Origin: Calditrichota bacterium | GTDB lineage: Bacteria; Zhuqueibacterota; Zhuqueibacteria; Zhuqueibacterales; Geothermadaptataceae | Assembly (NCBI GenBank): GCA_008501765.1 | Contig: QQUE01000002.1 | Location: forward strand, 308,336 to 372,335 | DNA: 64,000 nt | Direction: 5' to 3' | Part shown: piece after piece, positions 36,441-39,059 of the stretch | Layout of the letters: each line of letters starts with the position of its first letter | Position numbering within the stretch: position 1 is the first letter of the stretch | The notes under the pieces: generated by a model | What the model was told of the DNA's origin: nothing | Database searches by the model: none | The model's input: only the letters and a program-made list of their open reading frames with translations | Program-made: the position numbers and the translations under genes

Positions 36441-36797
36441 AATATCCTCCCGTTAATTTCAGATTCTTTTTAGCAATAGATTACAACATGTTTCATAAAT
36501 CAGCATTTTATCTGCTCGTTGAATAGGGATACGAATTCTCCAGAACAATGCCAAGAGGGAGTGTTGAGTTGATGAAAACGATATTGAAGGTTGGTGAGCA
36601 AAAGAAGAGTATGAATAAATTCGAGTAAAAAATTTACGAATCCAGAATCTTATTAAAAAGTCGAACAGAAAATATATTTCATTTTGATAGAGCCCCATGA
36701 ATGATGAATTTCTTCCTCTCAACATGCCCTAATTGTAGCAATAACTTGCTAAATGTCAATCTGGTTTTTTGATAGATTCAGGCATGGTAAATAATAG

Positions 36798-36826
36798 TTG
36801 ACAAAACAGAGTTTTTCCTCTATTTT
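36798..36826 (+). promoter_or_regulatory. Promoter of argR
   Basis: TTGACA (36798-36803) and TATTTT (36821-36826) are 17 bases apart, about 50 bases before the argR translation start. The A/T-rich stretch just downstream could hold an ARG box, but no clear palindrome is seen. Confidence 0.55.
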
Positions 36827-36875
36827 TATTCATAATCCTGTAATTTTACAGTCAGCCACAATTGGAGGAAAAACC

Positions 36876-37337
36876 ATCAACAAGCAAACGAGACACAGAC
36901 ATATCCGTGAGCTGATTTTAGGTCAAAAAATTTCAAGCCAGGAAGAATTAAGCAACGAGCTTAAAAACATCGATATCGATGTGACACAAGCGACGCTGTC
37001 GCGGGACTTACATGAACTCAGAATTGTCAGAATGCCCCTCGACAACGGATTTCGTTATGTCTTGCCGCAGACTGCAAGCGGAAAGCAATTAAAGAAAGTT
37101 GTGCAGCACGAAATCATTCAGATTCTTCACAATGAAAACTGTATAATTATAAAAACACTGCTGGGTCGTGCAGCTGGAGTTGCCATCTTCCTCGACACTC
37201 TAAAACACCCATATATTCTGGGCACAATTGCAGGGGATGACACTGTTATGGTTATCCCATCCAGCGTGCAACACACCAGCGATCTAGCGGACTATCTATT
37301 TTCTTTTGATTCAGAAAACACGAACGATGAAGCCTGA
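36876..37337 (+). CDS. argR: Arginine repressor ArgR, apparent AUC start
   Basis: A repressor of about 153 residues. The N-terminal winged helix is complete (NKQTRHRHIRELI, SQEELSNELKNI, TQATLSRDLHELRIVRMP), and the C-terminal arginine-binding, hexamer-forming domain ends GTIAGDDTVMVIPSS. The reading frame has no ATG or GTG near the domain start. GGAGG at 36864-36868 is spaced seven bases from ATC at 36876, exactly where other ArgR proteins begin. The only in-frame upstream candidate, TTG at 36798, is the -35 box. ArgR controls arginine genes when arginine is bound; no arg genes are in the window. Confidence 0.9.
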   Translation: MNKQTRHRHIRELILGQKISSQEELSNELKNIDIDVTQATLSRDLHELRIVRMPLDNGFRYVLPQTASGKQLKKVVQHEIIQILHNENCIIIKTLLGRAAGVAIFLDTLKHPYILGTIAGDDTVMVIPSSVQHTSDLADYLFSFDSENTNDEA

Positions 37338-37340
37338 TCA

Positions 37341-37367
37341 AACGCGGAGCAAAAAATTGCTCCGCGT
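37341..37367. terminator. Bidirectional terminator argR/amidohydrolase
   Basis: The stem AACGCGGAGCAA / TTGCTCCGCGTT has a short A-rich loop and lies between the two convergent genes. Confidence 0.75.
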
Positions 37368-37370
37368 TGT

Positions 37371-39059
37371 TCAATTCTGAAAGACAATCTCGCCACCAAG
37401 TACAGTCAATTCTACTTGAATATTAAATAATTCATCATCCGCACAATTCATCAAATCTTTATTTAACACGGTAAAATCTGCCAATTTCCCCTTCTCCAAC
37501 GTGCCCTTAATATTTTCTTCAAATCCGGCATACGCCGCCCAACTCGTCAACATTTTTAGCGATTCCTCACGAGATAAACGCAGCTCCGGATGCCAGTCAG
37601 CATTTGAGAAGCCGGTTGTGTCCTTGCGTACGCTGGCCGCATAAAATTCGATCATCGGATTGCCTTCTTCAACCGGGGCATCGGATCCGCCAGGAATGAT
37701 ACAGCCATTATCAATAAAAGATCGCCACGCATACCCGCGAGTCATCCTGTCTTTTCCAAGGCGGCGAACGGCAAAATGAAGGTCGCCAATCGCGTGTGAC
37801 GGCTGCATACTGGGAATTATACCCAACTTTGCAAACCGTGGAATATCCTCTGGTGCGACGATTTGTGCGTGTTCAACCCGGTGGCGCGGATCGGCAACAC
37901 GGCGATCTTCCACCGGCACCTCATGCAGCACTTTTTCATACAAATCTAAAATTAACCGGTTGCCGCGGTCACCAATGGCATGGGTTGCCACCTGAATCCC
38001 TTTTTCGGTGGCTTGCCTGATGACTGTGTATAATTCATTTTGTGGCGTCAACAACAATCCGTTGCTGTTGGCATCGGAATACGGAGCGAGAAGAGCTGCA
38101 CCACGGGATCCCAACGCACCATCCTGATAACACTTGATGCCGCGAATAGTCAAACGACTATCGTATAAGCTCACCTGTGAACCTTCTTCGAGCAATTTCG
38201 TGGCATCCAGTCCCGGCGCTGAGACATAAGAATGCAGACGTATTTTAAGCTCGTCTTTAGCATACATCTCTTTCAAAATATCGATGCGCGGCCACTTAAT
38301 TCCCATATCGTGTAATTGCGTCAGCCCATATTTAAACGAAACTTCCTGCGCCTTCAGTGCAAATTTGCGCACCATATCCGGTGTAGTGTCCGCCGGTGCA
38401 AAAATTGAAATTAAGTCAATGGCATTGTCGACAAAAATACCAGTTGCCAAACCAGATTTTTTATCTCTTTCGATATGGCCACCCTCAGGATTGGGTGTCT
38501 TTTTATCGATCCCGGCTATTTCCAGAGCCCGGGAGTTGGCAACAACCGCGTGGCCATCGGCGCGAGTCAGAATCATCGGATTTGTGGTGCTGATTTTATC
38601 CAGATCATAACGCGTTGGAAATTTCTTCTGCGGCCAATCTTCTTCAATCCAGCCGCGGCCAATTATCCATTCATCTTTTTCTTTTTGTTTTACTTCCGCT
38701 TTAATTCGGTTTAAAAAATCGTCAAGGGAAGTTGAGCCATCGAGATTAAGATAGAAGGCACGTTTGCCGATCCCGAGGAAATGGCAGTGGCTGTCGGTTA
38801 ATCCCGGTACGACTGTTTTGCCTTTGAGATCAACTTTGTTCGTTCGGTCGTCAGCGTATTTCATCGCTTCCGAGGTCGGGCCAACAAAAACAATAGTTTC
38901 GTCTTCAATTACAATTGCCTCAGCGACGCTGAAGTTTTCGTCCACCGTGTAAATAATGCCATTATAAAAAATAGAATCAGCCCCATTTTCTGTAGAAGTG
39001 CATGAAAATAGGAAACTGAAGACAACAAACAATATGCCCCATTTTTGCATAAATTTCAT
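37371..39059 (-). CDS. Amidohydrolase family lipoprotein (YtcJ-like)
   Basis: A 562-residue protein with a lipobox (FSFLFSC). The start is the ATG at 39059, which has GGAG six bases upstream; the GTG at 39071 overlaps that site. The metal-dependent amidohydrolase_3 signatures are present: GKTVVPGLTDSHCHFLGIG, LTRADGHAVVANSRALEIAG, RHRVEHAQIV and GSDAPVEEGNPM. YtcJ-like enzymes hydrolyse C-N bonds in formamides, hydantoins and similar compounds; the substrate here is unknown. Being a lipoprotein, it works in the periplasm, which is common for the FCB members. Confidence 0.88.
   Translation of the reverse strand: MKFMQKWGILFVVFSFLFSCTSTENGADSIFYNGIIYTVDENFSVAEAIVIEDETIVFVGPTSEAMKYADDRTNKVDLKGKTVVPGLTDSHCHFLGIGKRAFYLNLDGSTSLDDFLNRIKAEVKQKEKDEWIIGRGWIEEDWPQKKFPTRYDLDKISTTNPMILTRADGHAVVANSRALEIAGIDKKTPNPEGGHIERDKKSGLATGIFVDNAIDLISIFAPADTTPDMVRKFALKAQEVSFKYGLTQLHDMGIKWPRIDILKEMYAKDELKIRLHSYVSAPGLDATKLLEEGSQVSLYDSRLTIRGIKCYQDGALGSRGAALLAPYSDANSNGLLLTPQNELYTVIRQATEKGIQVATHAIGDRGNRLILDLYEKVLHEVPVEDRRVADPRHRVEHAQIVAPEDIPRFAKLGIIPSMQPSHAIGDLHFAVRRLGKDRMTRGYAWRSFIDNGCIIPGGSDAPVEEGNPMIEFYAASVRKDTTGFSNADWHPELRLSREESLKMLTSWAAYAGFEENIKGTLEKGKLADFTVLNKDLMNCADDELFNIQVELTVLGGEIVFQN

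Follow-up and report, generated by a model that had tools for sequence, protein, structure and literature searches.

Introduction

Initiation factor IF3 inspects start codons and hence can autoregulate infC, and in Escherichia coli the translation of pcnB is reportedly limited by an inefficient AUU start.

Quantitative data exist for AUH starts with strong Shine-Dalgarno sequences in Staphylococcus aureus: in poor medium, the AUU of cvfC1 and the AUA of ccpN and of citZ allowed about 10% of the expression obtained with AUG, and in rich medium the value for ccpN rose to as much as 30% (PMC13009471). The GTC start of sigR is repressed by IF3 according to a second study, where the point is also made, for sigR and infC, that conserved starts other than ATG, GTG or TTG (collectively NTG in the following) are easily missed, since gene finders assume these three (PMC5472188). 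In a reconstituted system, a larger amount of IF3 reduced the share of full-length product where the third-base pair was weak, AUU read by CAU being one such case (PMC10158994). A literature search, with most subscription papers outside its scope, found among the papers listed no natural argR with a non-NTG start, nothing relevant on ccmB with a CUG start and no work on start codons in Calditrichota; a bacterial case of AUC concerns an engineered mutation and not a natural argR start (PMC10303841).

Here, an argR gene from a Calditrichota genome is compared with its homologues in related genomes. An earlier inspection of the DNA, called the sequence-only reading below, had proposed that this gene starts with AUC.

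Results

The argR gene and its product

The window, i.e., the whole stretch of 64,000 nucleotides which was analysed, corresponds to positions 308336-372335 of contig C8 in a 5.9-Mb genome of 21 contigs (G000); the features of the argR region are collected in Table 1. The product was identified as ArgR by the equivalog model TIGR01529 with 133.1 bits (cut-off 130.45), and both ArgR domains, PF01316 and PF02863, exceeded their cut-offs, with argR being the sole PF01316 match in the genome. In a reading frame started at the upstream TTG, the PF01316 match covers residues 27-92, and the ATC codon is residue 27. The closest named relative outside the family is from a Calditrichia MAG (L016), with 53% identity over query residues 3-133, which makes a placement in Calditrichota likely.

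Table 1. Features of the argR region (window coordinates).
Feature	Position	Strand	Remarks
-35 hexamer TTGACA	36798..36803	+	holds the sole upstream in-frame NTG (TTG)
-10 hexamer TATTTT	36821..36826	+	17 nt after TTGACA
ARG-box-like TCTATTTTTATTCA, candidate ArgR operator	36819..36832	.	over the -10 hexamer; AT-rich, moderate evidence
Shine-Dalgarno core GGAGG	36864..36868	+	7 nt before ATC; in 5/5 family argR
ATC start codon of argR	36876..36878	+	ATC, ATC, ATC, ATT, ATT in the 5 argR-bearing family genomes
argR coding sequence	36876..37337	+	153 aa, stop TGA; TIGR01529, PF01316, PF02863

Divergently from argR, an 88-codon open reading frame of uncertain reality lies on the minus strand (36459-36725), and ahead of it a promoter-like TTGACA-16-TACAAT (36732-36759, minus strand; 11/12, with TG before the -10).

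Start codon and Shine-Dalgarno sequence in the family

Matches to argR were obtained in 13 of the 60 genomes searched (own genome included) and in five of the seven genomes of the family; none was found in G004 and G006, both of genus g3 (E ≤ 0.001). The aligned start codon is ATC in three genomes of one genus (G000, G001, G002) and ATT in two of the sister genus (G003, G005), and none of the five has ATG there. In the latter two, an ATC immediately precedes the ATT, but a spacing of 6 nt and the homologous position apply only to the ATT. A named MAG (L015) has a leader identical to that of G001, and the pair was counted once. Outside the family, an ATG lies ahead of the family start position, at a distance of two codons and preceded by AGGAG in the five argR matches of family f2 (L007-L011), which begin with it, and of one codon in those of L012-L014 and L016. 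Protein identity among the five family members drops to 99/150, and fourfold-degenerate sites are 24-41% identical between the genes; therefore, the presence of ATC or ATT without ATG is not merely a matter of recent common descent.

The GGAGG core stands 6-7 nt upstream of the start in all five genomes. Among 794 starts which we predicted ourselves in 1.2 Mb of contig C8, and of which 637 are ATG, 5.3% are preceded by GGAGG at 4-10 nt, as against 0.3% of shifted controls. The anti-Shine-Dalgarno sequence of this organism is not readable, since no 16S rRNA gene was found with RF00177 in the assembly (98.9% complete); the assembly apparently lacks the rRNA operon, although the gene also escaped this search in 5 of 14 control genomes. 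The claims that GGAGG is well spaced to an ATC at the point where ArgR begins, that the only in-frame conventional start upstream lies inside the -35 hexamer, and that argR starts with AUC, agree with the coordinates in Table 1 and with the sister genomes.

Masking of the Shine-Dalgarno sequence by RNA structure was considered and rejected: the unpaired score of the start region, 0.60 against a mean of 0.50 for the 637 ATG genes, points to a somewhat open site, though the region's minimum free energy is on the strong side, being stronger than in 73% of these genes.

The tRNA matches amounted to 41, and ARAGORN was run on 30 loci and three stretches, C8:1281962 and C11:136795 being left out. 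The CAT anticodon was found in three tRNA genes (L190, L205, L215). L215 has the GGG/CCC anticodon stem typical of initiators. Neither an AUC-reading initiator tRNA nor a tRNA-Ile(GAT) was seen among the tRNAs covered (all but two of 41), and a modified or extra initiator tRNA for AUC is thus unsupported.

Other non-NTG starts and the question of drift

We surveyed 2.39 Mb with 1,665 open reading frames (40% of the genome) for codons that stand behind AGGAG or GGAGG, mark the onset of coding and have no NTG in their vicinity, the only type of start that this approach detects. The survey yielded 137 places; 94 of these were ATG, TTG or GTG, and the remaining 43 were distributed over 29 codons with no excess of ATC or ATT (two each in the first 1.99 Mb; ACA occurred three times in the full survey). 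The thresholds of an initial 400-kb survey had missed argR itself, and the counts are from the tighter one. In a looser list of Shine-Dalgarno sequence plus codon from 1.2 Mb, 10 of 19 rows with ATT, ATC or ATA are followed by an NTG at a distance of one or two codons. An ATT at C8:594314 was rejected as a start, being judged internal by eye.

Four non-NTG starts were accepted on the basis of homologues and relatives and not of enrichment, namely those of argR (ATC), infC (ATT), ccmB (CTG) and, less surely, a GBBH-like_N (PF06155) gene (ATC). The infC gene (C14:163242) starts with ATT behind AGGAG or GGAG in all seven genomes of the family, and therefore AUU initiation operates there. For ccmB (C8:397959, minus strand; L176-L184), CTG is present in five of the seven genomes and TTG in the two of genus g2, in all seven cases behind GGAGG; two f2 genomes examined have ATG at the same codon, behind AGGAG. 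The GBBH-like_N gene (C8:404294, plus strand; L166-L169) has ATC in G000 behind AGGAG and in G001 behind AAGGAGG. In G002 the codon is apparently GTG, and in G005 it is ATG; a shorter protein would be possible from an in-frame ATG six codons on (G001) or an NTG twelve codons on (G000).

A side observation concerns the infC genes of three f2 genomes (G007, G009, G010; L103-L105), which have no NTG at normal Shine-Dalgarno spacing; TTG (G009) and ATG (G010) stand only about 1 nt after AGGAG. Their start may be a shared ACG, or the GTC or GCC preceding it.

We read the restriction of the third base of the argR start to C and T as selection for a weak start. With fourfold-degenerate sites as divergent as given above, an unconstrained third base should be almost randomly distributed, and ATG would be expected to predominate at an ordinary start; the argument leans on ATG being normally preferred, and five genomes are few. 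A somewhat unlikely alternative is that AUC and AUU are used without regulatory meaning, the strong Shine-Dalgarno sequence having freed the third base, which then drifted. The CTG of ccmB and the ATC of the GBBH-like_N gene (two of three genomes of the same genus) would fit such drift, since these genes have no obvious regulatory role, and a weak start behind a strong Shine-Dalgarno sequence therefore need not be regulatory. The sample could also be deceptive: for only five argR genes, five draws at a free third base would give no G in about 1 of 4 cases (0.75^5). Against drift, ATG should have returned if it were preferred as usual, and only C and T are seen despite the near-random fourfold sites; furthermore, relatives carry TTG or ATG in ccmB and ATG or GTG in the GBBH-like_N gene, whereas no such change occurred in argR within the family.

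Onset of coding

Mismatches were counted in all ten pairs of the five argR genes, ungapped and anchored on the start codon. In codons 2-40 they numbered 60, 38 and 199 at codon positions 1, 2 and 3, respectively, which is a coding signature. The corresponding numbers for the 12 codons upstream were 75, 66 and 76, i.e., no coding pattern; here unequal leader lengths inflate the mismatches, and it is the even spread that is informative and not the total.

In G000, the frame is closed by a stop at codon -27, and from there to the ATC it contains a single NTG, the TTG in the -35 hexamer (codon -26); the next ones downstream, GTG at +35 and ATG at +52, are both within the DNA-binding domain. In G002, a TAA interrupts the frame at codon -12, and the first NTG after it is at +44. 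In-frame TTG codons at -12 in G001, which has a stop at -25, and at -5 in G005, where it overlaps the Shine-Dalgarno sequence, are not common to the other family genomes; G003 and G005 have more NTGs at codon -28 and beyond. Of at least 497 argR loci, the 80 best were inspected. In 74 of these an NTG was present in the range from codon -6 to +4, and in another five, four from Arthrobacter and one from Brevibacterium, it lay at -8 to -11; the lone locus without one was L015, a member of the family. A looser window (-12 to +5) flagged none of the 80, and an NTG nearby does not prove its use. An AUH codon at the homologous start, with no usable NTG, was thus found for the family argR, most clearly in G002.

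Initiation at the TTG on a transcript from an upstream promoter, which would add 26 residues to ArgR, appears very improbable. The frame is indeed open to this codon in G000, and a weaker promoter-like TTGATA-18-AATAGT lies upstream (36769-36798); against this, the TTG belongs to the -35 box, no GGAG-like sequence was seen ahead of it by eye, the stops in G001 and G002 interrupt the frame, and the 12 upstream codons have no coding pattern. Draft assemblies may contain errors, but a misread ATG is refuted by the sister genomes, since ATY is found in five separate genomes from two genera, and this explanation retains hardly any probability; that ATC and ATT are correctly called as the argR start can be stated with high confidence. 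A start at GTG +35 or ATG +52, the first conventional ones in G000, would remove most of the DNA-binding domain from ArgR and deserves practically no credence, as codons 2-40, which lie within PF01316, are constrained as coding sequence in five genomes.

Promoter and ARG-box-like sites

If the transcription start is placed according to the -10 hexamer, the argR leader would be about 40 nt long. The arrangement TTGAC[A/T], 17 nt, TATTTT is common to all five aligned leaders of the family. In the window, TTGACA-17-TATTTT has a single exact match; tolerating one mismatch raises the count to 4, against 1.15 expected, and this count was attained in 3 of 100 shuffles. A general promoter scan of 36500-37450 gave 4 sites, which is not clearly above chance (shuffles, 2.3; sd 1.5).

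The search motif for ARG boxes, TGTATWWWWATACA, goes back to argG of G000, which is preceded by a perfect palindrome; the perfect TGTATAAAAATACA is found upstream of argG in both G000 and G001, at a distance equal within one nucleotide. The argG gene of G001 has a second upstream site, TCTATTTTTATGCA, which is one base off the TCTATTTTTATTCA of argR in G000. The site at the -10 of argR differs from the motif by 2 mismatches in G000, 1 in G003 and G005, and 3 in G001 and G002. Against an ARG-box reading stand the AT-richness of the sites, the poor fit of two of the five argR leaders and the two f2 argG leaders (G007, G009), where nothing close was found (best, 5-6 mismatches); the argG leaders covered were those of G000, G001, G007 and G009, and the motif was not found in L260-L263. 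Copies with one mismatch number 22 in 1.99 Mb of the genome, 13 of them labelled within an open reading frame. One such copy, TGTATAAATATGCA (C8:583944), precedes a proB-like gene, named by eye, at a distance of about 45-55 nt from its first NTG; another, TGTATAATTATAAA (window 37140-37153, C8:345475), is inside the argR coding sequence.

Discussion

The predicted AUC or AUU start of argR, its family-wide retention and the Shine-Dalgarno sequence can be read from the genomes themselves; a low yield of ArgR, sensitivity to IF3 and a physiological use would follow by analogy with described systems. Taken together, argR is probably translated from AUC by means of a strong Shine-Dalgarno sequence, which would keep the repressor scarce and could perhaps let its synthesis vary with IF3 or the status of initiation. 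The GGAGG, 7 nt away, would direct initiation to the AUC, where the initiator tRNA would pair through a third-base mismatch, as it would with AUU in the sister genus. The strong Shine-Dalgarno sequence would compensate for the weak codon pairing while IF3 would hold initiation down; ArgR would be produced in small amounts, and its synthesis may shift with IF3 or initiation status.

A further step, which we regard as doubtful, would be that the arginine regulon of the family is wired to translation initiation, with the ArgR level following IF3 or nutrient status, as seen for ccpN, and infC and argR forming a small start-codon regulon. If this were true, arginine genes would be derepressed under stringent initiation, and the products of infC (AUU) and argR (AUC or AUU) would rise and fall together.

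Standard annotation pipelines would probably give argR either a wrong 26-residue extension or a truncated DNA-binding domain. Comparisons of sister genomes, as carried out here, can reveal more weak starts. The documented cases infC, pcnB, sigR and ccpN are joined here by a metabolic repressor that two genera have retained, and the gene fits a pattern in which regulators use a weak start behind a strong Shine-Dalgarno sequence to stay scarce.

Comparison with known systems

Two traits of genes with AUH starts are present in argR, i.e., a start retained across species (five of five) and a strong, well-spaced Shine-Dalgarno sequence. The retention is shared with infC, whose AUU, AUC or AUA is likewise kept across species. 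The sequence-only reading had gone further and suggested an autoregulation through the start codon as for infC, which is unsupported: IF3 inspects the start codon and so autoregulates, whereas the product here is ArgR, no initiation factor, which cannot do so, and the parallel therefore does not carry over. If ArgR feeds back on argR, regulation of transcription at the candidate ARG box over the -10 hexamer would be likelier than autoregulation at the start codon. The pcnB gene of E. coli resembles argR in its AUU-type start, but encodes poly(A) polymerase and not a repressor.

In Streptomyces, sigR also encodes a regulator; its start is non-canonical, with an extensive ribosome binding site, and IF3 acts there to limit the level of the protein (PMC5472188). 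The gene differs in its GTC codon and in encoding a sigma factor balanced against an anti-sigma factor. Like argR, ccpN of S. aureus and Bacillus subtilis encodes a repressor of a metabolic pathway and combines a conserved AUH start with a strong Shine-Dalgarno sequence (PMC13009471). The two are different repressors, with AUA in ccpN and AUC or AUU in argR, and initiation was measured for ccpN, while that of argR is deduced. With ccpN and sigR as precedents, a translational limitation of the repressor is the best explanation for the start of argR.
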